This document shows positions 3,766 through 23,180 of a stretch of DNA of 43,388 bases, in pieces. This DNA is from Ignavibacteriota bacterium (lineage in GTDB: Bacteria; Bacteroidota; Ignavibacteria; UBA10030; UBA6906), in contig JACRFA010000108.1 in NCBI GenBank assembly GCA_016218065.1, positions 1 through 43,388 on the forward strand, read 5' to 3'. The position numbers were made by a program, and so were the translations under genes. Each line of letters starts with the position of its first letter. Positions within the stretch are counted from its first letter, which is position 1. The notes below the pieces were generated by a model that did not search any database, was not told where the DNA came from, and was given only the letters and a program-made list of their open reading frames with translations.

Positions 3766-3767
3766 TC
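3702..3767. repeat. Palindromic repeat pair at the 3' end of the octaheme cytochrome gene
   Basis: ACGGCGCT (3702-3709) pairs with AGCGCCGT (3731-3738) around an inner CCGC-ATT-GCGG hairpin. A second hairpin, GAGGACA-AA-TGTCCTC (3752-3767), follows, and its outer bases overlap the TGA stop codon (3766-3768) of the cytochrome gene. It could help terminate or stabilise that transcript. No clear T-run follows on the minus strand, so a repeat origin is more likely than a classic terminator. Confidence 0.6.
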
Positions 3768-5667
3768 ACTTAATCATCAACATCTTTCGCGTTGCTGAAA
3801 ATGTTCCCACCTCAAGTCGATAAAAATACAAGCCCGAAGCAACCATCTGGCCAAAGTAATCTTTGCCATTCCAAGTCGCTTCGTATGTTCCGGCGTTGTA
3901 GTCTCCGTCCATCAGTCGAACGATCTCTTGTCCGATCACATTATAGACAATCAATTGAACCTGCCCGCGCTCAGCAACCGTAACGCTGATTTTCGTCGAC
4001 GGGTTGAATGGATTCGGATAGTTCTGTGACAACGAGTGCTTCAACGGTACGTTCCCTGCGACCGGTTTCACGCTCGTGAAGCCCCATTGACGCCAGAAGT
4101 ACCACAATGTATCGGCGAGCGCGAGATCGGTTGCTTCGCGCCAATCTGCAAGGTTCGCATCGGAACCAACGCCAAAGGACGGAACGGATGCAGTCACGCC
4201 CGACGGATTACGATGGCAACTTGCAGCGCATGTGTTGATCATGCCAAGCGAGGGCGATCCCACTGTAGAATAGCGACGCGTAGCGTTTGGCGCAATTACT
4301 CCCCACGTGTGCGTAGCAATGTCAAAAGAATTCGCGGTGACCGCTGTGAGCGTCATGTGGCACTTCGAGCATCGCCCGCCGCCGCCAGTGTTTGCAGCGT
4401 TGGTCGGATCGTACACGTTGTGTTTCGTGTGCGCATTCACGTATCTGCCGATTGAGTCTTTGAATGCAATCGGGCTGCGTACCCATGCCTTCTGCACCGA
4501 CGCGAACGGTCCGTGCGTCGCGTGACACGCAAGACAAAGCGTGTTGTCTTTGTCGCTCACCTTGAAGCGATCCGCACCAACTGTCAGTGAATCGACAATG
4601 TCCTTCTCGTTTGATGTTGGTTTGTGCGATGAATGGCAAGTGAAGCAGCTCATCTCAACAAATGAGTTCGTGTAGTGCGCAGATCCCATCATGTCGTGAT
4701 ACTGCTGATGATGCTGACGAGGAACGTTGGTATCAACCCACGTGCCGCGCCCGCCGCCTGCATTTGGCGCGAGGCCGAAGTTCATAAACTGGTCGAGTCG
4801 CTTCGTTGTGTCGGCCGGATTGAAGTACGTGTCGTTCGATTCGTTGCGGTTGAATTCGTGCGTGCCGACCAATCCTGCGCCTCGCCACGATGACGCTCTG
4901 TTGTGGCATTGTCCGCACACTTCCATCTTTGATCGCTTGCTGAGCAACTTCGACGGGTTCATCTGGTGGTTCGGTCCGGCGCCGCCTGTTGAAGGACCGT
5001 GGCATGCTTCGCAACCAACCGTGAGATTGATCTCCGAGTTGTTGCCGGCCCATCGCGCCACCCACTGTGTATCGGCCCCTGCCACGACGGTCGAAACTCT
5101 TCCGCCTGTGAGATGGCAGCCCATGCAGTTCTTGTCCCACGACTTCTTTCGGAAGTAGATCGAGTCCGTTCGAATCGCTGCGCCACTGCTCTTGAACCAC
5201 GTGTTCGGATTGTATGTCACCCACGAGCCGGTGCTGTTGTCGAGGTACTTCTTAAGATTCCATTGAATCGGAAGAATGTAGTAGCTCGTATCAATCTTCA
5301 CGAGATAGCGTTGCTTGTAGCCCCAACCGTACGTGTAGGCAACCTTGTAGTTCGGTCCGCCGGCGCCGACGCGAGCATAGTAGTCGCTGCCGACTTTGCT
5401 CAAATAGACTTTTGCATTGCCGTAGCTCGCGCCCATCGACACGCTGTCGCCGTTTTGAAATTTCTGCCACGTGCGCATGGAGACCGTGTCGGGCTTCAGG
5501 TGGATCTTGGCATGAAGACTATTCTGCCAATGACTATACTGGTTGCCAAACACACCTGAGTGACAGGTCTGGCAGTACTGCGAACCCTGATATGTTTGTG
5601 CATCGACACTCGCTTGCACGAACACTATCAGGAACGCAAGCGTCAGAAAAAGTACAACTGCTTTCAT
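3766..5667 (-). CDS. T9SS-sorted multiheme (8-heme) cytochrome c
   Basis: This 633-residue protein starts at the ATG at 5667, chosen because it is preceded by AAAGGAAC and opens a signal peptide (MKAVVLFLTLAFLIVFVQAS). The frame is open further upstream, but without a signal sequence. Seven CxxCH heme motifs lie at residues 32, 181, 219, 251, 341, 378 and 433. A CX3CH motif (CAASCH, 480-485) makes eight. Extra histidines that could serve as distal ligands are frequent. The last 90 residues are a T9SS sorting domain (QNYPNPFNPSTKI) ending RKMLMIK. The product should therefore be a periplasmically matured, T9SS-exported electron-transfer protein on the cell surface. The N-terminal YQGSQYCQTCHSG with a later W..S.H resembles cytochrome c554-type multihemes. 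Substrate or partner is unknown; an extracellular electron-transfer role is inferred from the MtrA/MtrB-like genes nearby. Confidence 0.9.
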   Translation of the reverse strand: MKAVVLFLTLAFLIVFVQASVDAQTYQGSQYCQTCHSGVFGNQYSHWQNSLHAKIHLKPDTVSMRTWQKFQNGDSVSMGASYGNAKVYLSKVGSDYYARVGAGGPNYKVAYTYGWGYKQRYLVKIDTSYYILPIQWNLKKYLDNSTGSWVTYNPNTWFKSSGAAIRTDSIYFRKKSWDKNCMGCHLTGGRVSTVVAGADTQWVARWAGNNSEINLTVGCEACHGPSTGGAGPNHQMNPSKLLSKRSKMEVCGQCHNRASSWRGAGLVGTHEFNRNESNDTYFNPADTTKRLDQFMNFGLAPNAGGGRGTWVDTNVPRQHHQQYHDMMGSAHYTNSFVEMSCFTCHSSHKPTSNEKDIVDSLTVGADRFKVSDKDNTLCLACHATHGPFASVQKAWVRSPIAFKDSIGRYVNAHTKHNVYDPTNAANTGGGGRCSKCHMTLTAVTANSFDIATHTWGVIAPNATRRYSTVGSPSLGMINTCAASCHRNPSGVTASVPSFGVGSDANLADWREATDLALADTLWYFWRQWGFTSVKPVAGNVPLKHSLSQNYPNPFNPSTKISVTVAERGQVQLIVYNVIGQEIVRLMDGDYNAGTYEATWNGKDYFGQMVASGLYFYRLEVGTFSATRKMLMIK

Positions 5668-5811
5668 GTTGTTCCTTTCGTTTTGAATGTTGGATTGTGA
5701 GTGGTAAGCCCCATGAATACACGCCCGCATACATTCGGCGTGTCTTGTCTTCGGCACGGGGAAGTTCTTGCTTATGATTGTTCTTGGCGACATCTCTTCG
5801 CATCAAAATTA

Positions 5812-6498
5812 TTATGGAACCGATCGCTCTCCCAACGTGACGCTCTTCCCATCCGGCAGTACAACAGTCCCAACTCCGGTCAGGTAGGCCAAACCTTTTC
5901 CCTTGATCACGCCGAAGTAGATCGGCTCATCGCTTGCGCTCTCGACGAGCAAGTCAGATCTCGTGAAGGGAAACGTCAATCCGTTTGTCTGAATGGCGAT
6001 GATAGATCCATCTCCGGTTGGGCAAGCAAGCAGACCCATTTCATCCGGGGGAAAGTCTTTGAGTCCGCGGGTCTGACCTCCGGAGAGAGGTTCGGGTGAG
6101 AAGCAACCGTATTCGCTATCTTGCCGCACATTGTCATCGATCACGACAGAAACCGATTTGGCAAAATATCCGATTGCGCCTTTCTGTGGATTGACCGACC
6201 GCCACAGATTCCATTTCTCTCCGAGAATGTTTAACGGGATGATGAAACCGGATTCACGACGTCCGAGTCGGCTCATCATCTCTTGCAACTTCATCGCAAG
6301 CTTTGCTGATCCGGCGAACTTTCCTGAAGGAAACCTGGCGAGAAAGATTTTGAGTGAGGATCGGTCGAGCGAGTTCACATCAGCCCATGCCCTCTGCTCT
6401 GAATCCGCAGCCATTGTTCTTGCAGGCTCGGTCTGGCCGAACAGTGGGCAGCTAAGCAAGACGGACGCCGCGATCTGAATAAGAATACGCCTCTTCAC
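5812..6498 (-). CDS. Secreted hypothetical protein, GTG start
   Basis: A 228-residue protein of unrecognised family. It begins at GTG (6498), supported by a GAGGAGAG ribosome site about ten bases upstream. The signal peptide is MKRRILIQIAASVLLSCPLFGQ. A short segment, DRSSLKIFLARFPSGKFAGSA, resembles the helical hairpin seen in TPR-type outer-membrane assembly proteins. The rest has beta-rich character with a C-terminal DGKSVTLGE strand. No heme motif and no sorting domain are present, so it probably stays in the periplasm or is lipid-free in the outer envelope. It lies 144 bases upstream of the 8-heme cytochrome on the same strand and may be co-transcribed with it. A triple CTKAAG-type repeat sits 75 bases upstream of its start. 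Confidence 0.72.
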   Translation of the reverse strand: MKRRILIQIAASVLLSCPLFGQTEPARTMAADSEQRAWADVNSLDRSSLKIFLARFPSGKFAGSAKLAMKLQEMMSRLGRRESGFIIPLNILGEKWNLWRSVNPQKGAIGYFAKSVSVVIDDNVRQDSEYGCFSPEPLSGGQTRGLKDFPPDEMGLLACPTGDGSIIAIQTNGLTFPFTRSDLLVESASDEPIYFGVIKGKGLAYLTGVGTVVLPDGKSVTLGERSVP

Positions 6499-6572
6499 GT
6501 TGTTCTCTCCTCGAACAATCCTGATGCAAAATTCAACGTGAGGAATTTGAGAAGAAATGTCGCGGCTTACAA

Positions 6573-6599
6573 CTGAAGTTTGTCTTAAGAGTGATTAAG
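6573..6599. promoter_or_regulatory. Triple direct repeat, likely OmpR-family operator (site B)
   Basis: CTGAAG (6573-6578), CTTAAG (6584-6589) and ATTAAG (6594-6599) are spaced 11 and 10 bases start to start, preceded by CAA. The same order and spacing recurs at 8509-8535 and 21092-21118. Direct repeats one helical turn apart are how PhoB/OmpR-type response regulators bind DNA. This copy is 75-100 bases upstream of the GTG at 6498. Confidence 0.55.
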
Positions 6600-6629: not shown

Positions 6630-6672
6630 AAAAAACAAAACCCCGGCTCCACTTGTAGAAAAGGAGCCAGGG
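6630..6672 (-). terminator. Intrinsic terminator of the decaheme T9SS cytochrome gene
   Basis: On the minus strand, CCCTGGCTCC pairs with GGAGCCGGGG around a 12-base loop (one bulge). It is followed at once by TTTTGTTTTTTGG, a good T-run. It lies about 45 bases beyond the stop codon at 6716. Confidence 0.8.
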
Positions 6673-6715: not shown

Positions 6716-8266
6716 TCACTTCACGAACAACATTTTTTTCGAGGCGATGTAGGAACCCGCCTCTATTCTATAGAGGTACACACCGCTTGCGACAGCTGAG
6801 CCGGCGTGATCAATACCATCCCAGTAAACCTTGTACGTTCCAGGCTCAGTGAGTTCGTTGGCAAGAGACGTCACATACTTCCCGAGCATGTCATACACCG
6901 CGATCTTGACATGAGCTTTTGCAGGAACCGCAAAGCGAATTGTGGTTGATGGATTGAAGGGATTGGGGAAGTTCTGCTCGAGCGCAAACTCCCGCGGCGC
7001 AACCCTCGACACCGGAACGCTGTTGATGATCGACGCGCCGATCAGATTTCCCTGATAGTGACACTTGCTCGCACACACCGAATGCGTGTCGGGCTTTACA
7101 ATCTGATGCGGATACCAGTTGATCGCCTCATTGTACTTCATAATCAATGGTCGCACGCGGTTATTCTGAAGCGGCCATCGCCACGTATCATGCGCGATCT
7201 GTCCCTTCGATCTTCCGAAGCCGGTGAAGTGACAGGAAATGCAATCAACGGTCGTATGCTGCGGATAGTGATTCGTCATCGTGTGGCATGTCTGGCACTT
7301 CACGTCACCTTCATCCTGCCAGTTGTGGCGTCTGCCGGGATACGCGTGAACGTTCGAATGGCATTGTGCGCATTTCTTTGATGAGTGATTCGCGCTCAGC
7401 GCGTTCTCTTGAATTTGCGGATGGCGACGAATGTTCGTGCCCCATGCCTTGGGGTACGGCGGATCTTCCGAGAGGAAGCCGTTCATCGGCGGCTTGTAGT
7501 AGCCGATGTGGCAAGACTGACAAACAGCGTTCGATGCACGCAAACTATCGCCTGTATCGATCGTATGCGACGCGACATTTACCGTCCAGTCCATTGAGTA
7601 CTCGGTCATCTTCCCGACACGGGCAAGCGAGCCGCCATCGCCAAACTGTTGCAGACTATCCCAGATCGCGAGCACGTTGCCAGTACTCGCCTGAATCTTG
7701 TTGGATTTGAAATGGCACGTCGCGCACGACGTATGACAACGGTTGCAGTCGTTGTTCACGTATGCTTCGCCGACCGACTCGCCGTTCACCGTTCGCACGT
7801 GTGCTTGTCGTTGTCGCCAGGTAACATGATGCGTTGAAGAATCGAAGCCGGCGTGCTGGGCATGACATCCATTTTTATTGCACGACATTGCCGCCGCGGT
7901 ATAGTAGTTTCTTGTGCGCTCGCCGCCCGGCGTGATTGTGTCGTTCTTTGCGGAGAACCGCGCCCATCCGCCGTAATGCTTTACCAAGGAATTGGCGCCA
8001 GTGTGAGTGAACAGATTGCTTTGTGTGATGTCGGTGTGGCATTGCACGCAGAGCAAGTTGCGATGCTTGCTCATGTTGTACTTCAGAGAATCGACGAACA
8101 GCGGAATCGTCTCCGTCGTGCCGTTCGAAAGCGTGATCGTCTTGCTCAGTGATGCATTCGAATGGCAGAGGTAACATTGCTGTCGCGTAATCTGCGCATG
8201 AAGCGAGAGCGTGACAAGCAATGTTGCTGATACTGCAAGTATGGAAAGCCGTAAACGTTTGAACAT
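6716..8266 (-). CDS. T9SS-sorted multiheme (10-heme) cytochrome c
   Basis: A 516-residue secreted cytochrome. A strong AAGGAGAT site precedes the ATG at 8266, and the signal peptide is MFKRLRLSILAVSATLLVTL, cut near LHAQ. Eight CxxCH motifs occur at residues 31, 73, 174, 181, 249, 299, 324 and 342. There is one CX4CH (CNKNGCH, 129-135) and one CX3CH (CASKCH, 398-403), for ten possible hemes. The pair CNRCHTSCATCH (174-185) puts two hemes almost in contact. Residues about 425-516 form a T9SS sorting domain (QNFPNPFNPSTTI, ending KKMLFVK). The protein is thus expected on or outside the outer membrane. It is divergent from the PadR/MtrAB-like operon, sharing a 450-base regulatory region, which supports joint control. 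Its direct electron partner is unproven. Confidence 0.9.
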   Translation of the reverse strand: MFKRLRLSILAVSATLLVTLSLHAQITRQQCYLCHSNASLSKTITLSNGTTETIPLFVDSLKYNMSKHRNLLCVQCHTDITQSNLFTHTGANSLVKHYGGWARFSAKNDTITPGGERTRNYYTAAAMSCNKNGCHAQHAGFDSSTHHVTWRQRQAHVRTVNGESVGEAYVNNDCNRCHTSCATCHFKSNKIQASTGNVLAIWDSLQQFGDGGSLARVGKMTEYSMDWTVNVASHTIDTGDSLRASNAVCQSCHIGYYKPPMNGFLSEDPPYPKAWGTNIRRHPQIQENALSANHSSKKCAQCHSNVHAYPGRRHNWQDEGDVKCQTCHTMTNHYPQHTTVDCISCHFTGFGRSKGQIAHDTWRWPLQNNRVRPLIMKYNEAINWYPHQIVKPDTHSVCASKCHYQGNLIGASIINSVPVSRVAPREFALEQNFPNPFNPSTTIRFAVPAKAHVKIAVYDMLGKYVTSLANELTEPGTYKVYWDGIDHAGSAVASGVYLYRIEAGSYIASKKMLFVK

Positions 8267-8414
8267 AGTGACTATCTCCTTTTTGTCGCGTTAGAGCAAC
8301 GCAGCAATGTGATTGAATGGAAAGAACAACGGCAGGTGTGTTTTGGGGTGAAGTGTGTACAGCCGATGAACCTATCGTCACCTTCTGTAAGCACAGAACA
8401 CGCGGCCAGCCAAC

Positions 8415-8473
8415 GCAATCAGTGCAACTCTCATTCGCTTCAAAGACTCGCACGAAAGTGAGCGACTGATTGC
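8415..8473 (-). other. Inverted repeat, possible structured leader RNA
   Basis: GCAATCAGT (8415-8423) and ACTGATTGC (8465-8473) are exact 9-base inverted repeats, 41 bases apart, with further short complementary words between them. If transcription of the decaheme T9SS cytochrome starts upstream of 8473 on the minus strand, this could fold as a branched leader. I do not recognise it as a known riboswitch. Confidence 0.25.
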
Positions 8474-8508
8474 ACATGCAAATTGGTGGGAATTGTTCAG
8501 GAGTTCAA

Positions 8509-8535
8509 CTTAAGAGTTCCTTAAGATCGCTTAAG
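8509..8535. promoter_or_regulatory. Triple CTTAAG direct repeat, likely OmpR-family operator (site C)
   Basis: Three perfect CTTAAG words at 8509, 8520 and 8530 (11 and 10 bases apart), preceded by CAA. This is the cleanest of the three full copies in the window. It lies between divergent genes, 243 bases from the cytochrome start at 8266 and about 180 bases from the PadR start, so it could serve either promoter. Confidence 0.6.
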
Positions 8536-8627: not shown

Positions 8628-8643
8628 CTGAAGAGTGCTTCAG
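8628..8643 (+). promoter_or_regulatory. Partial CTKAAG repeat upstream of the PadR promoter (site D)
   Basis: CTGAAG (8628-8633) and CTTCAG (8638-8643) keep the 10-base spacing and share CTGAAGAGTGCTT with site A at 21103-21115. A degenerate TTGGAA sits where the third half-site would be (8617). The site ends 15 bases before the -35 box, a suitable place for an activator. Confidence 0.45.
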
Positions 8644-8658: not shown

Positions 8659-8687
8659 TTGACAAACCCTCGCCCCGCGATTATATT
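8659..8687 (+). promoter_or_regulatory. Near-consensus sigma70-type promoter of the PadR operon
   Basis: TTGACA (8659-8664), a 17-base spacer and TATATT (8682-8687). The start of transcription would fall near 8694, leaving a leader of about 23 bases before the ATG at 8717, which has no clear Shine-Dalgarno sequence. Confidence 0.65.
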
Positions 8688-8692
8688 GGAAC

Positions 8693-8713
8693 CCGATAAC
8701 GAAATCCGATAAC
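8693..8713 (+). promoter_or_regulatory. Direct repeat CCGATAAC at the transcription start
   Basis: CCGATAAC occurs at 8693-8700 and again at 8706-8713, 13 bases apart, between the -10 box and the ATG of the PadR gene. A repressor bound here would block the promoter, so self-control by PadR is one option. Known PadR sites are usually inverted rather than direct repeats. Confidence 0.4.
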
Positions 8714-8716
8714 ATT

Positions 8717-9010
8717 ATGGTTCGAGACTTTTTTCTTGGCTTCATCAAGGTGCACATCCTTCATCACGCCGCGCAAGTACCAATCTATGGCTTGTGGATC
8801 AAGGATGAGCTTGCCCATCACGGTTATAACCTGAGCCCGGGAACGTTGTATCCGATTCTTCATTCGCTGGAGGAACAAGGTCTTCTCAAGTCGTACTCAG
8901 AGACGGTGGATGGAAAGGTTCGGAAGTACTATGAAACGACCCCGAAAGGAACGAACGTGCTCACCGGGGCAAAGGGGAAGATCAAAGAACTCTTGGATGA
9001 AGTAATGTGA
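8717..9010 (+). CDS. PadR family transcriptional regulator
   Basis: A 97-residue winged-helix DNA-binding protein. The sequence FIKVHILHHAAQ..IYGLWIKDEL followed by SPGTLYPILHSLEEQGLL is the core PadR signature; the wing is KVRKYYETTPKG. The length matches the short PadR subfamily that lacks the large C-terminal dimerisation domain. It is the first gene of a plus-strand unit and ends 19 bases before the membrane iron-sulfur protein gene. It is probably a local regulator of this operon and perhaps of the divergent cytochrome gene. The effector is unknown; PadR members sense phenolics, drugs or other stresses, and none of that can be read from this sequence. Confidence 0.9.
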   Translation: MVRDFFLGFIKVHILHHAAQVPIYGLWIKDELAHHGYNLSPGTLYPILHSLEEQGLLKSYSETVDGKVRKYYETTPKGTNVLTGAKGKIKELLDEVM

Positions 9011-9029
9011 AGAAGGCGAAGGCAAGGTT

Positions 9030-10421
9030 ATGAGGGAGGTCGAATTCGATTTGCTGAGCGTGAGGCCGCTGAAGACTCTGATTCTATGGCGGGGATTCCC
9101 GTACGTATTTCAGGCGTTGACGCTGATAGCATTCCTCCTGCTTGCCTACATTGGATTTGGCGTGTTCCCGACAGAAGGTATCAACGCCAAGCTCTTTGCC
9201 AAATCAAATCTCGTCACGCTCGTGATTTGGGGATTGTGGTGGCCCGCGATGATTTGGACTGCGGTGTTGGCCGGCCGTGCATGGTGCATGATATGTCCAC
9301 TTGAGTTTGTCTCGAATCTCTCAGAACGGCTTGCGCGCCGGCTTGGAATCGAGCAACGCTCGCTCGGTCAATGGCTCCGCTCCGGCGCGCTGATGGTTCT
9401 GCTCTACTTCGCCATTCAAATGCTCGTGTCAGGTGTTGGTCTCCATCGTGTTCCTGCGTACACATCATTCTTCCTCATCGGATTGCTTGCCTCGGCAATC
9501 GTTGTTGGGTTCGTGTTTAAGGATCGAGCGTTCTGTCGCGCGTTTTGTCCCGTGGGATTGCTCCTCAATGCCTACGGAAGAGGCGGGATGCTTGCCGTAC
9601 GTCCCGGATCAAGTGCTGCGTGTTCCAGCTGTGCTGATAAGGGTTGTCTGATCGCGAGCAATCGGAATAAGGTTGATGGTCGAAGCTGCCCGAGTCTTCT
9701 CAACCCTTCGCGGTTGAACAGCAACAAAGATTGTCTCGTCTGCGGACAGTGCATCAAGTCGTGCGCGCCGGACAATATGCAACTGGTGTTGCGGCAGCCA
9801 TTTCCCGAAAAGGACGCGCGCGAGCCGCTTGCATCATGGCCGCTCACATTGTTCATCATGCTTGCGTCCGGCTTCGTCACTTCCGAGCTGACGGCAGAGT
9901 CGAGCATTGCGCAAGCTGCGTTCGTCTGGATTCCAGAACACATTGCAGACATCTTGCGGCTCTCCCACTATCTCGGATGGCTTGAGGGAATCTGGGCCCT
10001 TGTATTATTCCCGGCTGTGCTGTGGCTGCTGCTGGGAGGAATGATTGCTCTGTTTAGACGCACGAGCATTGGCGATGCGTGGAGGAGACTGGCGCTACCG
10101 ATCGCAGTTATTGTTTCCGCCGCACACATGAGCAAAGCGCTTGCGAAGTTCACGTCGTGGGCTGGATTTTTTCCGCACGCGCTCACTGATCCCTTGGGGA
10201 CGAAGACTGCCATGGACATTGCATCGCACGCCGTTCCTTCACCCGAACCGTTGGTGAATATTCACGTTGCATCAGGAATTGCATTCGGTCTTCTCCTCGT
10301 CGGAACGCTGCTAGCATTGCGAGAAGTGCGCCTCGCAAATCCGACGTATCTCCGCGTGCATGCGGCGCCGAAGTTTGCATTGGCGGGATTGTTTGTCATT
10401 ATCATAATGGCGTGGGGTTGA
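9030..10421 (+). CDS. NapH/NosR-like membrane 4Fe-4S protein (putative quinol-oxidising electron carrier)
   Basis: A 463-residue inner-membrane protein with several hydrophobic helices at both ends. Between them lie the marks of the NapH/NosR/CcoG family: C86MIC89P and C169RAFC173P after membrane segments, then two ferredoxin-like cluster sites, C198xxC201xxxxC206 with C220P, and C235LVCGQCIKSC245. Family members pass electrons from the quinol pool, or between membrane and periplasm, through these clusters. In this operon, with a small periplasmic cytochrome and, after a gap, a decaheme/MtrB-like pair, it is a good candidate for the entry point of electrons, doing the job CymA does in Shewanella. 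That role is inferred. An AAGG-rich stretch precedes the ATG. It is not a textbook NapH: the C-terminal membrane half is longer. Confidence 0.82.
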   Translation: MREVEFDLLSVRPLKTLILWRGFPYVFQALTLIAFLLLAYIGFGVFPTEGINAKLFAKSNLVTLVIWGLWWPAMIWTAVLAGRAWCMICPLEFVSNLSERLARRLGIEQRSLGQWLRSGALMVLLYFAIQMLVSGVGLHRVPAYTSFFLIGLLASAIVVGFVFKDRAFCRAFCPVGLLLNAYGRGGMLAVRPGSSAACSSCADKGCLIASNRNKVDGRSCPSLLNPSRLNSNKDCLVCGQCIKSCAPDNMQLVLRQPFPEKDAREPLASWPLTLFIMLASGFVTSELTAESSIAQAAFVWIPEHIADILRLSHYLGWLEGIWALVLFPAVLWLLLGGMIALFRRTSIGDAWRRLALPIAVIVSAAHMSKALAKFTSWAGFFPHALTDPLGTKTAMDIASHAVPSPEPLVNIHVASGIAFGLLLVGTLLALREVRLANPTYLRVHAAPKFALAGLFVIIIMAWG

Positions 10422-10549
10422 TTTCGTTCTGAACGAAGCGAAGCCCTGGTGGGTGAGCGTAGTGAAGGGTTAGTTTGGGATTCTTCTCCAAAGGGGTCCT
10501 TCGGACAGTTCGTCACGTTGTTCTTTCAAATCACTACTGGAGATGTCTC
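10422..10549. other. Intergenic gap with degraded repeat-like sequence
   Basis: This 128-base spacer between the iron-sulfur protein and small cytochrome genes contains words such as TCTGAACGAAGCGAAG and GGGATTCTTC, like the repeats in this type of genome. No terminator with a T-run is obvious, so read-through to the cytochrome gene is possible. Confidence 0.4.
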
Positions 10550-11074
10550 ATGCAACCACACCATTTCTCATTGCGTCATCCTCTCATTCGCATCTCCACT
10601 ACTCTTCTTCTCTGCTTTTTCTGTCCCACATGTGCGGAACCTGCGAAGGACTCCGCTTCTCCTGATTCTGTTTGGCTGAAGGGAACCTCCGACGAGAAAT
10701 TTCATACCGTCGCCCGCCAACTTCGCGGCTTCGACATGGCGATGATGGAAACCGCTCATCGCTATACGGAGTTATACTGGGCAGGGCGCGACGGGAACTG
10801 GCAGTACGCGAAGTATCAGGCCGAGAAAATTCGCACTGCGATTGAAAACGGCTTGCAGCGACGGCCGAAGCGTGCTGCCTCTGCACAGACGTTTCTGACA
10901 TTTGTGCTGCCGGAAATGCTCACGGCGATAGAGAAGCAGGATTCGTCACTGTTTTGGAATCGCTTCGGAGCGTTAACTTCCACCTGCAACGCGTGTCACG
11001 AAGCAGAGAAGGTTGCATTCATCAACGTGGCGCCGCCTGAAACGCGGCTGTCGCCTGCGCATCTCTTCAAATAG
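10550..11074 (+). CDS. Small secreted monoheme cytochrome c
   Basis: A 174-residue protein starting at ATG 10550, which follows a GGAG. The same frame is open upstream, but that part has no ribosome site and would hide the signal peptide (RISTTLLLCFFCPTC). The mature part is mostly helical (HTVARQLRGFDMAMMETAHRY.., KYQAEKIRTAIENG..). It ends with one heme-binding motif, TC146NACH150, near the C-terminus, as in cytochrome c'-like four-helix proteins. It should act in the periplasm as a one-electron carrier. Position between the membrane iron-sulfur protein and DoxX genes, upstream of the decaheme pair, suggests it shuttles electrons within this pathway. The exact family is not certain. Confidence 0.8.
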   Translation: MQPHHFSLRHPLIRISTTLLLCFFCPTCAEPAKDSASPDSVWLKGTSDEKFHTVARQLRGFDMAMMETAHRYTELYWAGRDGNWQYAKYQAEKIRTAIENGLQRRPKRAASAQTFLTFVLPEMLTAIEKQDSSLFWNRFGALTSTCNACHEAEKVAFINVAPPETRLSPAHLFK

Positions 11075-11088
11075 AAATAGGAATACCC

Positions 11089-11547
11089 ATGCACCAATCC
11101 GTGCTCTTCAAGCTCACGAGCAAGGAATCCTACGACACGGTTGTTCCTCTCATTCGATTGATGGTCGGCGCAGTCTTTCTCTCAGAAGGAATCCAGAAGT
11201 TTCTCTTCTCCGAATCGCTCGGCGTCGGTCGGTTCATCAAGATTGGAATTCCCGCCCCGGAAATCCTGGCGCCGTTCGTCGGGGTTGCCGAGATTGTGTG
11301 CGGCGCGTTGTTGCTGCTCGGTCTCTTCACGCGGCTCGCTGCCATTCCGCTCATCATCAACATGCTCGTCGCAATCTCAACTACAAAGATCCCAATTCTC
11401 GTTGAAAAAGGATTCTGGGCGATGGCACACGATGCGCGCACGGACTGGTGTATGCTTCTCGGCTCGATTGTTCTTTTGATTATTGGCGGCGGTCGTTGGT
11501 CAGCGGATTCGTTGTTAGTGCGTCGGGGAAAAAGGCGGACAGACTAA
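11089..11547 (+). CDS. DoxX family membrane protein
   Basis: A 152-residue protein with four hydrophobic helices. LIRLMVGAVFLSEGIQKFLF, the glycine-rich GRFIKIGIPAPEILAPFVGV and EIVCGALLLLGLFTRLAAIPL are typical of DoxX/DoxD-like proteins. An AGGAA site precedes the ATG, and only 14 bases separate it from the cytochrome gene, so the two are surely co-transcribed. DoxX proteins accompany thiosulfate:quinone oxidoreductase and various redox or stress-response complexes. Here it could be a membrane partner of the electron-transfer chain, but its function in this setting is unknown. Confidence 0.88.
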   Translation: MHQSVLFKLTSKESYDTVVPLIRLMVGAVFLSEGIQKFLFSESLGVGRFIKIGIPAPEILAPFVGVAEIVCGALLLLGLFTRLAAIPLIINMLVAISTTKIPILVEKGFWAMAHDARTDWCMLLGSIVLLIIGGGRWSADSLLVRRGKRRTD

Positions 11548-11584
11548 ATGCCCGCATCGTTCTAACTCAAGTTACAGGGCATTT
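11546..11584 (+). terminator. Stem-loop at the DoxX stop codon
   Basis: AAATGCCC (11546-11553), overlapping the TAA stop, pairs exactly with GGGCATTT (11577-11584) across a 23-base loop. No long T-run follows, so it is a weak terminator candidate. It may instead attenuate read-through into the decaheme/MtrB genes. Confidence 0.35.
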
Positions 11585-11637
11585 GGTAACCCACAAAATG
11601 ACGCCTGAACGAGCGATCGATTCTTTCTTGAGAGGTT

Positions 11638-11698
11638 GGACACGGCAGAGCCGTGTCCCTACACCCCAAAAAGGTAGGGACACGCCTCCGGCGTGTCC
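11638..11698. repeat. Composite palindromic dispersed repeat
   Basis: Two perfect 9-base-stem, 3-base-loop hairpins sit side by side: GGACACGGC-AGA-GCCGTGTCC (11638-11658) and GGACACGCC-TCC-GGCGTGTCC (11678-11698). The sequence between them can form a third stem, GTCCCTAC with GTAGGGAC. The unit GTAGGGACACGSC is a common intergenic palindrome family in bacteria. A related copy lies inside the gene at 983-3112. Confidence 0.75.
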
Positions 11699-11775
11699 TG
11701 CCCTTGTTTCGAAATCGGATTTTCTGCAAATAGCAACTTTGCTAACATCAGTCAACCAATCGAAGGGAAAGGCAA

Positions 11776-12678
11776 ATGAAAAAACCAGCTATCATTTTGC
11801 TCTCTGCCTGCGTCGTAGGTCTTTCTGTCGCGATTCCTCTGCTGGCGCAACGGGGCACTGACAAAGTGGATTGGGCAAAGCTCAATCCCGCGTTCAAAGG
11901 CGCGACGTTCGTGAAGGATAAAGAAGCGTGCCTCACTTGCCATGAAGAGTCGGGCAAGAAATATCTCACCACAACACATGGACGCCTCTTCGGGAAGAGT
12001 ATGGCAGGCGCCGACTGCGAGACCTGCCACGGTCCGCGTAGCAAGCACGTCGAGGAACCGGACTCCAGCTTGGCGTTGTCCGTCGAGCAGTACTCGGAAG
12101 TCTGCATGCAATGCCATCAGGATGGGAACCGTATGTATTGGCAAACCAGCTTGCACAAGACAACCGGTGTTGGGTGCGTGTCGTGTCATACGGTGATGGA
12201 GAATCGCAGTCACACGGCGTTACTCGCCAAGGCAAATCAATTCGCGGTTTGCTCCAGTTGCCACGAGGATGTCAAGGCGATGTTGAGCCGGACTTCACAT
12301 CACCCGATCCAAGAAGGCAAAGTGGATTGCTCATCCTGCCACAACATGCACGGAGCGCCGGGGCGCGCGATGCTGGCGAAAGGCGAAGTCAACGAGACAT
12401 GCTTCGGTTGTCATCAGGAGAAACGCGGTCCCTTCCTCTGGGAACATCCGCCGGCGCTCGAAGACTGCTTGACCTGTCATCAACCGCACGGTTCAAACAA
12501 CAGAAGTCTCTTGGTCACCCAGAACGCATCGTTGTGCGTAACGTGCCATCAGTACGGCGGGCACGTCAATCAATTTCGCTACAACCGTGTGAGCACACCA
12601 TACGGAAATGGCTGCGTTAACTGCCACATGATGGTACACGGCTCCAACCATCCATCCGGCGCACGATTCACGAGATAG
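11776..12678 (+). CDS. DmsE/MtrA-family decaheme c-type cytochrome
   Basis: A 300-residue periplasmic decaheme cytochrome. AAGGGAAAGG precedes the ATG, and the signal peptide is MKKPAIILLSACVVGLSVAI. Ten CxxCH motifs begin at residues 52, 81, 110, 134, 159, 185, 209, 231, 254 and 280, evenly spread as in MtrA/PioA/MtoA/DmsE. Length and ending (VNCHMMVHGSNHPSG) match the family. These proteins form a heme wire that plugs into an MtrB-type barrel and carries electrons through the outer membrane. The barrel gene follows after 12 bases. Whether the flow is outward (metal or electrode reduction) or inward cannot be decided from sequence. Confidence 0.95.
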   Translation: MKKPAIILLSACVVGLSVAIPLLAQRGTDKVDWAKLNPAFKGATFVKDKEACLTCHEESGKKYLTTTHGRLFGKSMAGADCETCHGPRSKHVEEPDSSLALSVEQYSEVCMQCHQDGNRMYWQTSLHKTTGVGCVSCHTVMENRSHTALLAKANQFAVCSSCHEDVKAMLSRTSHHPIQEGKVDCSSCHNMHGAPGRAMLAKGEVNETCFGCHQEKRGPFLWEHPPALEDCLTCHQPHGSNNRSLLVTQNASLCVTCHQYGGHVNQFRYNRVSTPYGNGCVNCHMMVHGSNHPSGARFTR

Positions 12679-12690
12679 GGAGAATAGAAA

Positions 12691-15225
12691 ATGAAAAAGT
12701 CAATTTATACCACGATAGCGTTTCTGCTCAGTTCGATCATAACTGTCCGAGCATCAGCACAAGATGATCTCCAAGTCTCCGGAGAACAAACGCCGGGCGT
12801 CCGTCAGATCGGACTGAACTCCAATTCGAGCAAGTTCAACGAGTACCGCGATCTGCGCGACGGTTTCTTTATGGAAGGTCTGCGGCTCGACATCTTACAA
12901 CCGGAAAGCGGTTGGTTTCTGGATTTCAAGGGAGAGAGATTGTTGTTGGATGATCAGAATATTTTCGCCCGGTTCGGTAATCTCAACAGCCGTTGGAATA
13001 TCGTGATCAATCACAACGAAACTCCGCATCGCCTCAGCAACAAAGCGATGACGCCGTACATCGATCGGGGCGGCGGGCTGTTCACTGTGCCCGCGCAGGT
13101 CGGCATCATCAAGGACACGAGTGTCGCCAACGGCACGCCCTCGCTCGTGCCGACAGCCGCTCAGATGGCAGTCAATGATGCGCTCATCGCGGCGTATTTG
13201 GCAACGTATCTCCGTCCGCTCAGCCAAAGTACGCAGCGCGAACGCACGAAAGCGACACTGAATGTATCGGATGTCGGCGCATTCAATTTTCATCTCACAT
13301 ATTTGAACGAGCTTCAGAACGGTATGCGAAGAACGTATGGCACCATTGGCGATAGACCGCCGCGGACGCTGAACATTCAACTTCCCGAACCGATTGACTA
13401 CACGACTCGCGAGGTGCAAGCCGGAGCGGAATATTCCGGTAACACGATTCAGGCACAACTCGAGTATCACTTCTCGTCGTTCGAGAACAGAATCGATGTC
13501 TTGCGTTGGGAAAATATTTATTTTGATCCTGATGCGGGACGCGACTACGTCTCCACGCTTGCCGGCACCCCGCGCAATGTTTCAAGCTTCGGGCAGCGCT
13601 CACTCGCTCCGGATAATTTCTCGCACAGTGTTTCGCTTTCTGCCGGTATTGATCTCCCAATGGAAAGCCGACTCACATCCACTGCCGCCTTCACTCTCAT
13701 GCGGCAGAATGAAGTGCTGCTTCCGTACAGCGCCAGCACACTTGGCAGAGACCTATCAGTAGATAGTCTTGCATGGAATAATCCTCGCAAACTTCCGCGT
13801 GAGCGTGCAGATGCAAAAATTCAAACTTTGAGATTCGATCTGGAATATTCTATCAATCCTATCAACCTCCTGAACGTGCGACCCTACGTCAGCTACTTTA
13901 AGTTGGACAACAAAGGCGTGACTGCGCAGTGGCGATATGTCACTCAGGATGTTGCAGGCACCAACGGCAGTGTCGCGATCGTCAGCAAGGTGCGCAATCT
14001 TCCGTACGCGTTTGACAAACTCAAATTCGGACTTGACCTGAGGCACTACGTTCCCTTCTGGCGAACGACGCTCCGGGCAGGATATGCACGAGAGAGCATC
14101 AACCGGGATTTCCGTGAAGCAAAAACCGACGAGAACATCTTCGAGGCTTCTGTGCGAACGCGCCCAATCAACCGGCTGACTTTTTCGGCGGCGTTCCTGT
14201 ACGGCGATCGCAAAAGCGATGGGTACAACTACAAGGTTACCAGCGAAGCTTTCTGGTACACCTTTCAGGAAGGCGCCAATGATGTGGACAATCCACAATT
14301 CCTCTTTGCCAATCATCCCGATCTTCGCCGCTATGATGTTTCTGATCGCAAGAGGAATGAGCTGAAGCTGTCGGCTGCATTCATCGCTCTAGAAGATCTC
14401 GACGTGTCGGCTTCGTATCGCTATCGCAACGATGACTTCGCTTCGGATGTTGTGCCGGTCGCTCCTCTGGCAGGAACAACAGTCCCACTGCCTACTCCGT
14501 CTGATGCGAACGCGCTGACGCCCGGGCAGCAACTCGGGTTGCTGCGCGATAAGCGACAGAATGTTGGTCTCAATATTCAATTCGTACCCGCAGAACATTG
14601 GACGTTCATCGCGTTTTTCGATCGCGAGTGGACTGCTTCCGATCAACGCGGGATGGTGTTCAACGAGGGGTTCAGGAATGAGCCGAGCGAACCCACGATT
14701 CAAGGTCCTACTGCTCTCGGTCCTTGGACTGATCCCGGCGGCATTTACAATTCCAACATCAAAGATGTCACGAACACTGTGGGCGCAGGCATCGGCTACG
14801 AAATCATTCCCGACAAACTCCGGCTTCTTACCGACTTCAGCTTATCTGCCACCACCACAGATCTTTCATACACGGGCTTCGGGTCTGATCCTGCATTGAT
14901 CGGACGTGCGTGGGAGACTTTTGATTTTGGATTCAACAGCCCGCGGACAGTCAAGTTCAATCAGTCTGTCGTAAACGCTTCGCTGGAGTACAATGTGTTA
15001 CAGAATCTGATTCTCGGTCTGCATTATCTCTTCAATCATTACCGTATTGAGGATTGGATGCAGGAACCCGTTGGTCCGTGGGTTGAGCAGGTTGGCAGCG
15101 AGTTTTATTTGCGCGACACATCGCGAGACAATCGCTGGGGCAACCGCTTGGTCGCGTTCGGCAGCTACTTGGCGCCGAGCTTTGACGCGCATGTCGGGTA
15201 CTTGACGATGACGTACAAGTTCTGA
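12691..15225 (+). CDS. MtrB/PioB-family outer-membrane beta-barrel
   Basis: An 844-residue protein with a signal peptide (MKKSIYTTIAFLLSSIITVRASAQ) and a GGGAG ribosome site. The rest is alternating polar/apolar strands separated by long loops. It ends VGYLTMTYKF, the C-terminal aromatic expected of barrels inserted by the BAM complex. The N-terminal region (FARFGNLNSRWNIVINHNETPH) and placement directly after a decaheme cytochrome mark it as MtrB/PioB-like, the sheath around the MtrA-type heme wire. It is somewhat longer than Shewanella MtrB. There is no MtrC/OmcA-like lipoprotein gene next to it. The T9SS-sorted multihemes at 3766-5667 and 6716-8266 are the obvious candidates for an outside partner. 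Confidence 0.9.
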   Translation: MKKSIYTTIAFLLSSIITVRASAQDDLQVSGEQTPGVRQIGLNSNSSKFNEYRDLRDGFFMEGLRLDILQPESGWFLDFKGERLLLDDQNIFARFGNLNSRWNIVINHNETPHRLSNKAMTPYIDRGGGLFTVPAQVGIIKDTSVANGTPSLVPTAAQMAVNDALIAAYLATYLRPLSQSTQRERTKATLNVSDVGAFNFHLTYLNELQNGMRRTYGTIGDRPPRTLNIQLPEPIDYTTREVQAGAEYSGNTIQAQLEYHFSSFENRIDVLRWENIYFDPDAGRDYVSTLAGTPRNVSSFGQRSLAPDNFSHSVSLSAGIDLPMESRLTSTAAFTLMRQNEVLLPYSASTLGRDLSVDSLAWNNPRKLPRERADAKIQTLRFDLEYSINPINLLNVRPYVSYFKLDNKGVTAQWRYVTQDVAGTNGSVAIVSKVRNLPYAFDKLKFGLDLRHYVPFWRTTLRAGYARESINRDFREAKTDENIFEASVRTRPINRLTFSAAFLYGDRKSDGYNYKVTSEAFWYTFQEGANDVDNPQFLFANHPDLRRYDVSDRKRNELKLSAAFIALEDLDVSASYRYRNDDFASDVVPVAPLAGTTVPLPTPSDANALTPGQQLGLLRDKRQNVGLNIQFVPAEHWTFIAFFDREWTASDQRGMVFNEGFRNEPSEPTIQGPTALGPWTDPGGIYNSNIKDVTNTVGAGIGYEIIPDKLRLLTDFSLSATTTDLSYTGFGSDPALIGRAWETFDFGFNSPRTVKFNQSVVNASLEYNVLQNLILGLHYLFNHYRIEDWMQEPVGPWVEQVGSEFYLRDTSRDNRWGNRLVAFGSYLAPSFDAHVGYLTMTYKF

Positions 15226-15227
15226 TT

Positions 15228-15968
15228 ATGCAAGACGGGAAGTCCTTCTTGACGGAACTGCGTTGGTCTTCCTCAAACTCGGCACAATCGGTTTCGGCGG
15301 TCCCGCCGCGCATATTGCTATGATCGAAGAAGAAGTCGTGAAACGAAGGCAGTGGCTCACGCATGAACACTTTCTCGATCTCCTCGGCGCAACGAACCTC
15401 ATTCCGGGACCGAACTGCATCTTCATTGCCGAACGGAGTTGCGACAGATGCCACACTCACGAATCTTGGTCTCTTCTTTCTGAAAATCGGTGCGATACTT
15501 TACGGCAGCGGCTACGTGCTTGTTGCCTTCCTGCAAGGCGGACTGGTAGATGCACGGCATTGGCTCACGCAATCGCAGCTGCTCGATGCTATTGCGGTGG
15601 GACAGTTCACTCCCGGCCCCGTACTTTCAACCGCGACGTTCATTGGCTACGTGATACTCGGTTTCCCCGGCGCCGCGGTTGCGACGACGGGAATCTTTCT
15701 GCCGTCGTTTATCTTCGTCCTCGTCAGTAGTCCGCTTATCCCGAAGCTCCGGAAGTCGCCGCTGGCGAGCGGCTTTCTGAACGGCGTGAACGCTGCGTCG
15801 CTTGGATTGATGCTCGCGGTCAGCATTACACTCGCGATGTCTGCGTTGTCGAGTGTGAGCGCATGGATAATTTTCGCCCTTGCGGCTATAGTCGTTTTGG
15901 TTTGGAACACAAACGCCGCGTGGGTTGTTGTAGGCTCTGCGTTGCTGGGATGGATACTGGCGGGGTGA
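15228..15968 (+). pseudogene. chrA: Chromate transporter (ChrA-like), frameshifted and internally deleted
   Basis: Pieces of a CHR-family transporter appear in different frames. ATG 15228, two bases after the MtrB-like stop, reads MQDGKSFLTEL. A one-base loss near 15261 moves the frame to VFLKLGTIGFGGPAAHIAMIEEE..LIPGPN. There the match stops, and the rest of the first CHR half (about 130 residues in a normal ChrA) is missing. A third frame then gives TLTNLGLFFLKIGAILYGSG and QFTPGPVLSTATFIGY through to the stop at 15968, which is the second half. An intact two-domain ChrA is about 390 residues. The second half alone could in principle be made as a one-domain protein, but it has no good start, so decay is more likely. 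Confidence 0.85.
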
Positions 15969-16059
15969 TGTCTTCGCCTTATGATAGGAACGTCGTGTCA
16001 AGGCATTCTCACGCCCAAGCTTTGAGCGACAATTCCTTCCAATAGAAAATCCTGCAAAG

Positions 16060-16080
16060 AATAGATATTTGTTCTATATT
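16060..16080. promoter_or_regulatory. AT-rich imperfect inverted repeat, candidate ArsR operator
   Basis: ATAGA (16061-16065) and TCTAT (16073-16077) flank a 7-base spacer in the AT-rich stretch upstream of the ArsR gene. ArsR/SmtB-family repressors commonly bind such elements over their own promoter. The match is short. Confidence 0.35.
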
Positions 16081-16118
16081 GTTGCGCACTTTCTAAACTC
16101 ATAAACCGTGAAACAGTG

Positions 16119-16445
16119 ATGGCAACCAGCAACGAGATATTCGGTCTCCACGCAGAAGTCTGCAAGACACTTTCCCACCCGAAGCGGTTGGAGATACTCA
16201 GCATCTTGCGCGATGATGAAATGGCTGCAGGCGACATCGTCAACAAAATGAAAATCTCGAAGGCGAACGTTTCGCAGCACCTCACACTCATGCGAAACGC
16301 GGGCATTCTCGAAGCCCGTCGTGATGGAGTCAACATCTATTACCGCATCTCCAGTCCGAAGGTGATTCAGGCGTGCGACCTGATGCGCGAGGTGCTAATG
16401 GACAATCACACGAAGAAAGAGAAACTCTTTCGGAAAGCGGGATAA
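16119..16445 (+). CDS. ArsR/SmtB family regulator, possibly sulfide/persulfide-sensing
   Basis: A 108-residue winged-helix repressor. CKTLSHPKRLEILSIL and SKANVSQHLTLMRNAGILEARRDG are the family's DNA-binding core; NIYYRISSPKVIQACDLM is the end. A GTG directly before (16116) is an alternative start. The metal-binding ELCVCDL motif of arsenic sensors is replaced by EMAAGDIV, so it is not an ArsR-type metal sensor. Only two cysteines occur, Cys15 and Cys86. Persulfide sensors of the SqrR/BigR group also use a cysteine pair, though at different positions. It overlaps no gene but ends five bases before an SQR-like flavoprotein gene, which it very likely controls. Confidence 0.88.
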   Translation: MATSNEIFGLHAEVCKTLSHPKRLEILSILRDDEMAAGDIVNKMKISKANVSQHLTLMRNAGILEARRDGVNIYYRISSPKVIQACDLMREVLMDNHTKKEKLFRKAG

Positions 16446-16450
16446 ACGAT

Positions 16451-17692
16451 ATGAACGGAAAGACCATTCTGGTTCTTGGCGGTGGCGTTGGGGGCATTGT
16501 CGTCGCCAACGAACTGCGACGCAAGCTTTCTGCGTCCAACAAAATCATTCTTGTCGAAAAGAATAGAGACCACGCGTTCGCCCCATCCTTCCTCTGGCTC
16601 ATGACCGGAGACCGCCAGCCGCAAAAGATCATAGCTCCGTTGCGTACGCTCGTCCGCAAGGGAGTTGAGATCGTGTACGGCAACGCCATTGCCATTGATG
16701 TGATAAATCGAGAAGTGAGAACGACGGAAGGATCGTTCGGCTACGATTATCTTGTGATCGCGCTCGGCGCCGAGCTTGCGCCGGAAACGATTCCGGGATT
16801 GAAGGAGACCGCGTATTCGTTCTACTCTTTCGATGAAGCGCAAAGGCTGCGAGACGCGCTCAGGCAATTCAAGGGCGGAACAGTCGCCGTGGTTGTGAGC
16901 GCGCTTCCGTACAAATGTCCGGGCGCGCCGCATGAAGCCGCAATGCTTGTCGCCGATTTCTTCCGGAAGGGTGGACTCAAGGAAAAAGTTTCGCTGCACT
17001 TGTACACGCCCGAACCGCAGCCGATGCCTGTGGCAGGACCGCAGCTTGGCGATGCAGTCAAGCAGATGCTTGCGTCGAAAGGAATTTCGTTCCATCCTCT
17101 TCACAAGCTTGCTTCGGTGAAGTCTGAGAACAGCGAGCTTCTGTTTGACGAAAAGGAATCGGTCCGGTTCGATCTGTTGATTGCTGTTCCACCACATCGT
17201 GCGCCGCGGATTGTTCGTGATGCCGGACTGGCAAACGAAGCCGGCTGGGTTCCCGTTGATCGCTTCACGCTGCGAACAAAACACGAACGCGTGTTTGCCG
17301 TCGGCGACATCACTGCGATCAGCATCCCGGGTCGGTGGAAATCGGATGTGCCGATGATGTTGCCGAAAGCCGGCGTGTTCGCGCACACGCAAGCGGAGAT
17401 CGTCGCCGAGCGCATCAGCGACGAGATCGCTGGACGCGTTCCACATGCTCAGTTTTGCGGCGAAGGCTATTGCATGCTCGAAGCAGGAGAGGGACTCGCC
17501 GGCTTTGCGTACGGAGATTTCTTTGGCGACCCGAATCCGCGGCTCGAACTGCGAAACATGGGTCGAGCGTGGCATCTCGGCAAAGTGTTGTTCGAGCAAT
17601 GGTGGCTTGCGCCGTTCGGGATTCGCAAGTCCGTTCTGCACTCCGCGTTATCTCTTGGCGCGAAAACTCTCAAGATTCCTGTGAGCGTATGA
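16451..17692 (+). CDS. SQR/FccB-like FAD-dependent oxidoreductase
   Basis: A 413-residue flavoprotein. ATG 16451 was chosen over the longer open frame because it begins the nucleotide-binding fold directly (KTILVLGGGVGGIVVANELRR). A second family mark is VFAVGDITAI near residue 282. Cys156 lies in PYKCPGAPHEAAML, and Cys336 and Cys341 in QFCGEGYCML. In sulfide:quinone oxidoreductases and flavocytochrome c sulfide dehydrogenase, cysteines at about these places form the redox-active disulfide. The first of the three SQR cysteines (near residue 124) is absent, as in FccB. The likely reaction is oxidation of sulfide or persulfide with electrons passed to quinone or a cytochrome. ArsR and DsrE-like neighbours support a sulfur role. 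Confidence 0.85.
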   Translation: MNGKTILVLGGGVGGIVVANELRRKLSASNKIILVEKNRDHAFAPSFLWLMTGDRQPQKIIAPLRTLVRKGVEIVYGNAIAIDVINREVRTTEGSFGYDYLVIALGAELAPETIPGLKETAYSFYSFDEAQRLRDALRQFKGGTVAVVVSALPYKCPGAPHEAAMLVADFFRKGGLKEKVSLHLYTPEPQPMPVAGPQLGDAVKQMLASKGISFHPLHKLASVKSENSELLFDEKESVRFDLLIAVPPHRAPRIVRDAGLANEAGWVPVDRFTLRTKHERVFAVGDITAISIPGRWKSDVPMMLPKAGVFAHTQAEIVAERISDEIAGRVPHAQFCGEGYCMLEAGEGLAGFAYGDFFGDPNPRLELRNMGRAWHLGKVLFEQWWLAPFGIRKSVLHSALSLGAKTLKIPVSV

Positions 17693-17734
17693 TCGCTCTC
17701 GTTGTCGTTCTATCAAACAATCCAAGGAAACAAA

Positions 17735-18088
17735 ATGAGCATTCTCATTCTTATTAACGATGCACCTTATGGCACTGAAAAAGCATACAATGGACTTCGG
17801 TTGGCGATGACGCTGCAAAAGGAACATCCGACAGTTCAGGTAAATGTGTTTCTCATGGCCGACGCGGTTGGCTGTGCACTTCCCAATCAGAACACGCCGC
17901 AAGGTTACTACAACATCGAACGAATGCTGAAGTCCGTTCTCGCGAAGGGAGGAAAAGTAAAAGCATGCGGCTCGTGCGCCGATGCGCGTGGAATCCGACC
18001 GCTATCCATCATCGAAGGGGTGGAGATGAGCAACATGTCGGAGCTGGCGCAATGGACGGTCGATGCAGAGAAGGTGTTCACGTTCTGA
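17735..18088 (+). CDS. DsrE family protein
   Basis: A 117-residue small alpha/beta protein starting at ATG 17735 behind AAGGAAA; the frame is open a little further upstream without a ribosome site. ILINDAPYGTEKAYNGLRLA and the cysteine-bearing loops GC47ALPNQ and KAC78GSC81ADARGI identify the DsrE/TusD-like group, whose cysteines carry or transfer persulfide sulfur. It lies 42 bases behind the SQR-like gene and is probably in the same transcript. A role as sulfur acceptor or carrier for the flavoprotein is the simplest reading, inferred from neighbours and family. Confidence 0.85.
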   Translation: MSILILINDAPYGTEKAYNGLRLAMTLQKEHPTVQVNVFLMADAVGCALPNQNTPQGYYNIERMLKSVLAKGGKVKACGSCADARGIRPLSIIEGVEMSNMSELAQWTVDAEKVFTF

Positions 18089-20882: not shown

Positions 20883-20951
20883 ACAAAAACCCCAATCCCG
20901 ACTTACCTCGAGATTGGGGCCGAAAGGGAGCAACCTGCTGGCCGGTTGCTC
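20883..20951 (-). terminator. Intrinsic terminator preceded by a second hairpin
   Basis: On the minus strand, GAGCAACC and GGTTGCTC (20928-20951) form an 8-base stem. Then CCCCAATC and GATTGGGG (20890-20919) form another, followed by TTTTTGTTG. It lies about 190 bases past the histidine kinase stop. It could end that transcript or a separate short one. The plus-strand side has no T-run, so it probably does not serve the convergent gene. Confidence 0.7.
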
Positions 20952-23179: not shown

Positions 23180-23180
23180 G

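Follow-up and report, generated by a model that had tools for sequence, protein, structure and literature searches.

Tandem direct half-sites that lie 10-11 bp apart beside a promoter are the layout of the OmpR F boxes, the TorR tor boxes and the multiple Pho boxes. In enterobacteria the PmrA (BasR) box, CTTAAK-N5-CTTAAK, consists of head-to-tail half-sites 11 bp apart and is bound by a response regulator of the OmpR/PhoB type (PMC3973317). PmrA binds CTTAAG and CTTAAT repeats head to tail (PMC3973317, PMC4660055), and its base-contacting residues are Asn188, Val192, His195, Asn196 and Arg210 (PMC4660055). The sigma-A promoter of Bacteroidota has a -33 element TTTG and a -7 element TAnnTTTG (cited in PMC7366714).

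Here we analyse a repeat in a 43,388-nucleotide stretch of DNA from an Ignavibacteriota bacterium (the window), which is one whole contig (C29) of a 5.17-Mb assembly of 319 contigs that is 97.5% complete. From sequence comparisons we consider it highly probable that the repeats are operators of a two-component system whose genes also lie in this window, that two of them belong to cytochrome promoters, which its response regulator (RR) probably activates, and that the third is a relic or the promoter of a short RNA.

Three copies of a triple-hexamer repeat

A first-pass annotation had described a direct repeat, CTKAAG-N5-CTKAAG-N4-CTTAAG, at 6573-6599, 8509-8535 and 21092-21118, with spacings of 11 then 10 bases and a leading CAA, and all of these features are as described. 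The copies at 8509-8535 and 21092-21118 are exact, and that at 6573-6599 has one mismatch, its last hexamer being ATTAAG. The CAA is present, but its reading changes: the functional strand is the minus strand, on which it reads TTG, as part of a -33/-35 element, and the consensus of the box is CTTAAK-N4-HTTMAG-N5-CTTMAG-TTG. Because CTTAAG is palindromic, only the CTGAAG copies and the conserved spacing speak for direct repeats.

Operator 1 (6570-6599, minus strand; CTTAAT-cact-CTTAAG-acaaa-CTTCAG-TTG) lies upstream of the genes 5812-6498 and 3766-5793, with 71 nt between its TTG and the start codon of the former. Direct reading of the sequence identifies a terminator-like hairpin at 6641-6672 on the minus strand (CCCTGGCTCC...GGAGCCGGGG, then a T-rich stretch), the 12-nt loop of which is beyond the loop limit of the terminator scan. 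This hairpin would terminate 6716-8266, so that operator 1 falls within the promoter region of the gene that follows. Operator 2 (8506-8535, minus strand; CTTAAG-cgat-CTTAAG-gaact-CTTAAG-TTG) is upstream of 6716-8266, in the divergent intergenic region that this gene shares with a padR gene. The distance from its TTG to the start of 6716-8266 is 239 nt, and that for the orthologue at locus L144 of another genome is 240 nt. A leader of about 200 nt before the cytochrome gene (8267-8505 here, 3716-3955 in L144) is conserved in length in the two genomes. Operator 3 (21089-21118, minus strand; CTTAAG-cact-CTTCAG-aaatt-CTTCAG-TTG) is an orphan: it overlaps the stop codon of the histidine kinase (HK) gene and lies between convergent operons with no downstream gene. 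The view that three of the sites precede electron-transfer genes thus holds for those at 6573 and 8509 and fails for 21092-21118. The partial copy reported at 8628-8643 is also present, as an inverted repeat CTGAAG-agtg-CTTCAG of two hexamers only, with no third hexamer and no adjoining TTG; the padR -35 element (8659) comes directly after it, and the MtrAB operon might through this site also answer to the two-component system.

The repeat is rare. In dinucleotide shuffles of the window (n = 100), 0.01 matches are expected at up to three mismatches, and four were observed, one of which is the reverse reading of the copy at 8509. Beyond the three window copies the 5.17-Mb genome contains no match with at most one mismatch, and a reversed-pattern control has none. 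At two mismatches there is one further match in the genome, and there are two for the control. The three matches are confined to less than 15 kb, none is more than 17 kb from the RR gene, and they share no homology outside the box and promoter core. A two-hexamer search of the genome gave five extra exact matches, none with a proper third hexamer, and no copies with at most one mismatch were found in 20 family relatives.

The box abuts a conserved promoter core

We compared ten order-level sites from five genomes, which are partly orthologous and so not fully independent. The TTG adjoins the third hexamer in all ten. It is followed 13-17 nt later by TTTCT, each base of which is conserved in at least seven sites and TTCT in at least nine, and 20 nt on by [CG]ANNNT, with C or G at position 21, A at position 22 and T at position 26 in every case. 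The consensus of this -7 element is CAAWTT. In the window, column conservation among the ten sites places the promoter core of operator 1 at 6544-6557 (minus strand; TTTCT, then CAAATT 20 nt after the TTG), and operators 2 and 3 have -7/-10-like elements CAATTT (8480-8485) and CACCTT (21063-21068) on the same strand. Start codons lie 46-240 nt downstream of nine of the sites; the tenth, at 21092, has the core and no gene. Half-sites are 10 and 11 bp apart in eight of the ten order-level sites and in all three class-level sites described below, and 11 and 11 bp apart in both sites of locus L159.

Like the Bacteroidota sigma-A promoter, these promoters have the TTG and, about 20 nt on, an A-rich element whose last base is T. 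They differ from it in having C or G as the first base of the -7 element (10/10) and in the conserved TTTCT that precedes the element. The core resembles a Bacteroidota promoter in which the first -7 T is replaced by C or G, and may be a weak core of the activator-aided kind. This promoter type, like the presence of T9SS (type IX secretion) proteins, suggests the Bacteroidota in a broad sense. As the box abuts the -33/-7 promoter, the geometry is that expected for a class-II activator.

The box tracks orthologues of the adjacent two-component system

The putative binder is the RR encoded at 22496-23179 (minus strand), with a receiver domain and a winged-helix Trans_reg_C domain whose recognition helix is DNVIDVHIAHLRRK. 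Its partner is the HK encoded at 21114-22499 (minus strand; HAMP, HisKA and HATPase_c domains). The two genes are the last in a minus-strand run of sugar genes (21114-30092; sialate-esterase-like, GH3, MFS sugar transporter, GH5, RR and HK), with gaps of 38, -38, 17, 62 and -4 bp along the run.

Orthologous loci were found by an order search with the octahaem cytochrome (L144 in genome G468, L145 in G472), by an order-wide search with the RR of L144 (L158 in G467, L159 in G458) and by a class-level RR search that added genomes G670, G651 and G633, which were held out. All four order-level loci carry the box; their RRs are 52-65% and their HKs 41-48% identical to those of the window (65% and 46% in L144, 64% and 41% in L145). 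With the window included, the five order-level RRs form one clade (SH-aLRT 100) and share the recognition helix DNVIDVHI[AT]HLR, which paralogues lack. Searches of the family, of a thin phylum sample and of GTDB r220 returned no RR relative above 52%.

Scanning 98 genomes of the order for CTTAAKNNNNNTTAAGNNNNNCTTMAGTTG at up to two mismatches gave ten matches, seven of them at loci with an RR orthologue, and every match with at most one mismatch adjoins an orthologue of this two-component system. The remaining three have two mismatches each: those in G354 and G190 are inside open reading frames, and that on contig C317 of the window's own genome is weak (11.9 bits). A reversed control gave seven matches, singly in other genomes. 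The overlap of box and RR orthologue at the level of genomes has a P value of about 2e-5.

A 48-column matrix was built from the seven non-window sites only and scored over 86,682 positions. Although it came entirely from other genomes, it ranked operators 1, 2 and 3 first, second and third (37.6, 30.5 and 28.8 bits), the next best score being 7.6. When the hexamers were omitted, the promoter part of the matrix still ranked the same sites 1, 15 and 3. Leave-one-out scores for the ten sites were 31-45 bits, against a best score of 15.0 at the loci of other RRs (n = 80, 1.33 Mb), and the loci of the 46-50% paralogues stayed below 9. The boxes of the held-out genomes G670, G651 and G633 scored 22.8, 16.5 and 10.9; in G633 (entry L177) a coding-sequence match (20.2) outranks the true box, which comes second, so that the case there is carried by the hexamers and not by the matrix.

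The suggestion in the annotation that an OmpR/PhoB-type regulator at 22496-23179 binds the repeats is thus supported by the tracking of RR orthologues, by the recovery of the sites with a window-free matrix and by all three held-out loci. The annotation had named enrichment upstream of multihaem and T9SS genes as support for a regulon. No such general enrichment was found, and nothing comparable was found elsewhere in the genome apart from the weak match at C317:26671; the regulon is local and not dispersed. That match (C317:26671-26700 of genome G000, L160:6672-6701; 2-3 mismatches) is just upstream of a lipoprotein-like gene and is a possible distal target in the same genome.

Target genes and their counterparts in other genomes

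The genes predicted to be controlled by operators 1 and 2 are all on the minus strand. That downstream of operator 2 (6716-8266) encodes an octahaem cytochrome with eight CxxCH motifs and a T9SS sorting domain, orthologues of which are found beside the two-component system in L144 (75% identity) and L145 (58%). The first gene after operator 1 (5812-6498) encodes a protein with a signal-peptide-like start that belongs to no known family. It is followed by a likely co-transcribed target (3766-5793), which from its domain and motif count is a 7-CxxCH cytochrome with a T9SS sorting domain, and which is a distant homologue (25%) of the site-controlled cytochromes in L158 and L159.

L144, L145, L158 and L159 each have a box between 8 and 62 bp beyond the stop codon of the HK gene, in every case before an electron-transfer gene. 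In L144 this box, 12 bp past the stop, precedes the gene for a mono-haem CNACHTVFPRLN protein, the other (3956-3985, minus strand) being before the cytochrome gene. In L145 one box, 62 bp past the HK stop, is before the cytochrome gene and the other before a CNACH gene. In L158 the box past the HK stop is before an octahaem T9SS cytochrome gene, and in L159 it is before a NapH-like gene that is 36% identical to the window's 9030-10421, with a second box before an octahaem T9SS cytochrome gene. The targets in the relatives are accordingly octahaem T9SS cytochromes, a mono-haem CNACHTVFPRLN protein and a NapH-like protein. The mono-haem family (L144:6425-7744, L145:10952-12235) has the sequence ATSQWARKTGMxCNACHTVFPRLN near its N terminus and no Pfam match; it is present in 4 of 98 order genomes.

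Sites are also found before the regulator gene. L144, L145 and L158 have two-hexamer N4 sites upstream of the RR gene, and in G670, G651 and G633 the sequence CTTAAA-N4-ATTAAG-N5-YTTAAG-TTG is just upstream of it (3/3), an arrangement that suggests autoregulation. The window, unlike most relatives, has no box upstream of its own RR gene.

Alternative binders and modes of action

A padR-type gene (8717-9010) lies about 180 bp from operator 2. It heads a plus-strand run (8717-18088) of genes for PadR, a NapH-like protein, a hypothetical protein with one CxxCH, DoxX, an MtrA-like decahaem cytochrome, an MtrB/PioB porin, a chromate transporter, a sulfide-dehydrogenase-like flavoprotein and DsrE. 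If the boxes were PadR operators, they should accompany this cluster; however, PadR-MtrA-MtrB is conserved in G439 (PadR 63% identical) with neither the two-component system nor the box, whereas L144, L145, L158 and L159 have boxes and no PadR orthologue nearby. We reject PadR as the binder, a role that is highly improbable, also because its own conserved upstream element is a different one. This element (8681-8711; TTATATTGGAACCCGATAACGAAATCCGATA), which contains CCGATAAC repeats, is identical at 27 of 31 positions to that of the G439 orthologue (L130) and is likely to be the PadR operator. The MtrAB genes were likewise discarded as the conserved partner of the box, since MtrB relatives (L044-L047, L129-L132) are found without the two-component system and without the box. 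Close MtrB orthologues (64-78%) are restricted to four other genomes within the order, all from another family, a distribution that suggests horizontal transfer. Another OmpR/PhoB regulator from this genome could instead bind the boxes, with the neighbouring two-component system only a linked target. RRs are numerous in the genome (127 first-look candidates), and the RR-HK genes of the three class-level genomes have the box in front of them, as a target would. A regulator encoded elsewhere should, however, leave sites elsewhere, and among the 98 genomes there is no site with at most one mismatch outside the loci of this two-component system; the nearest paralogue (C294, 49%) differs in its recognition helix, and no box lies near its gene. 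We regard this explanation as very unlikely.

Even with the adjacent RR as the binder, the overlap of box and -33/-35 element, with the third hexamer abutting TTG in all ten sites, would allow the RR to act as a repressor that occludes RNA polymerase. PmrA- and PhoB-type boxes that adjoin the -35 element usually activate. Furthermore, the -7 element departs from consensus, with C or G in its first position at every site, as expected of activator-dependent promoters, and repression therefore seems unlikely. The idea that the repeats arose by chance, or are mobile or structural elements that regulate nothing, draws on the fact that short A+T-rich palindromic hexamers are common and that a few exact two-hexamer matches exist elsewhere in the genome. 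It has a negligible probability and was rejected on the shuffles, on the restriction of all three genome-wide matches to one 15-kb stretch and on the finding that a matrix made from other genomes picks them out, the copies having nothing in common beyond box and core.

The orphan operator

Operator 3 retains its box and promoter core, and is followed by a strong intrinsic terminator (20888-20921, minus strand; 14 pairs and a T-rich tail) that would end both the HK mRNA and any transcript from the operator. One possibility, to which we give some but lesser weight, is that a small regulatory RNA is transcribed from it, about 170 nt long and running from about 21056 to 20888 on the minus strand. 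No convincing open reading frame is seen by eye after the operator, there is no pseudogene trace of the relatives' genes, and a 175-nt RNA from this position folds to -69.8 kcal/mol (z -3.3). However, the fold without the terminator hairpin is ordinary (z -1.3), the window has no Rfam match, and no homologue of the 175-nt RNA was found among the compared loci. A relic promoter is also the simpler explanation given that relatives have a protein gene at this position.

We favour the relic. The search for a pseudogene remnant after operator 3 returned none (best E 0.006, to unrelated proteins), and the relatives' CNACH protein has no homologue elsewhere in the window's genome. A relic, as opposed to a short RNA, may have come about through a rearrangement that brought the MtrAB operon against the two-component system. 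The missing box upstream of the RR gene and the position of the two-component system at the end of a GH3-MFS-GH5 run, behind a 62-bp gap, would fit the same rearrangement.

Proposed mechanism

The operator model is based on sequence, genome-wide rarity, conservation with the two-component system and a conserved promoter architecture. From these we infer RR binding, its dependence on phosphorylation, activation rather than repression, and a signal. On such a signal, the HK would phosphorylate the RR, which would then bind the two or three direct hexamers CTTAAK/HTTMAG/CTTMAG as head-to-tail subunits. With the promoter-proximal hexamer abutting the TTG of the -33/-35 element, and a weak -7 element [CG]ANNNT 20 nt further on, the bound RR would contact RNA polymerase and overlap or replace the -35 contact. 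It would thereby turn on 6716-8266 and, from operator 1, 5812-6498 with 3766-5793. Operator 3 may mark the place where an ancestor had one more target promoter, the gene of which was lost here, leaving a relic or the promoter of a short RNA that extends to 20888-20921. The regulon is local and specific to one pathway, with two or three transcripts and one orphan promoter, and is very likely controlled by the adjacent two-component system. The fullest version, in which an undescribed two-component system controls T9SS-exported surface multihaem cytochromes of this phylum through a triple-hexamer operator and an unusual TTTCT-N3-[CG]AAWTT core and in which one promoter is now, in this genome, that of a small-RNA gene where the kinase gene ends, is doubtful as a whole.

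With the regulator, operator, promoter geometry and targets named to the base, one can look directly for the signal behind the induction of T9SS-exported cytochromes, and the conserved operator marks the regulon elsewhere too, even in genomes with a different cytochrome partner. In the open-access literature searched, we found no paper that links a response regulator to multihaem cytochromes and type IX secretion, and none on OmpR-type regulators of extracellular electron transfer. How extracellular electron transfer is switched on in this bacterial group is apparently undescribed in that literature.

Comparison with known systems

The operator shows what is typical of OmpR/PhoB-type sites, namely half-sites about one helical turn apart, a co-occurring regulator with receiver and Trans_reg_C domains, and a position at the promoter. 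In its tandem half-site layout it is like the OmpR F, TorR tor and Pho boxes, from which it differs in sequence, regulator clade and targets.

Among the heavy-metal two-component systems, CopRS, CusRS and CzcRS provide the best NCBIfam matches of the RR and HK, both of which fall below the respective cut-offs (RR to TIGR01387, CopR/CusR/CzcR, 225.9 bits against 279.2; HK to TIGR01386, 272.2 bits against 292.55). The helix of the window RR reads VHIAHLR where the closest Pseudomonas matches have VAIRRLR, and no metal efflux genes are under the box.

The resemblance to PmrA is found in both the site and the protein. The half-site CTTAAG/CTTAAT is the same, and the second and third hexamers of the window box are likewise 11 bp apart. 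Solved PmrA/BasR structures (4s04, 8jo2) match the window RR over its full length (E about 5e-43). The RR scores 200.9 bits against the NCBIfam PmrA/BasR equivalog NF007928, below the cut-off of 330. In our own alignment with the PmrA contacts, the window RR keeps the equivalents of Asn188, Val192, His193 and the wing Arg, whereas His195 is replaced by Ala and Asn196 by His. The window box differs in having three half-sites (10 and 11 bp), CTGAAG/CTTCAG variants, an adjoining TTG and a Bacteroidota-like -7 element, and its targets are cytochromes where those of PmrA are lipid A genes. In summary, the kind of operator (OmpR/PhoB-type, PmrA-box-like) is known, and the two-component system, the operator itself and the regulon appear not to have been described before.
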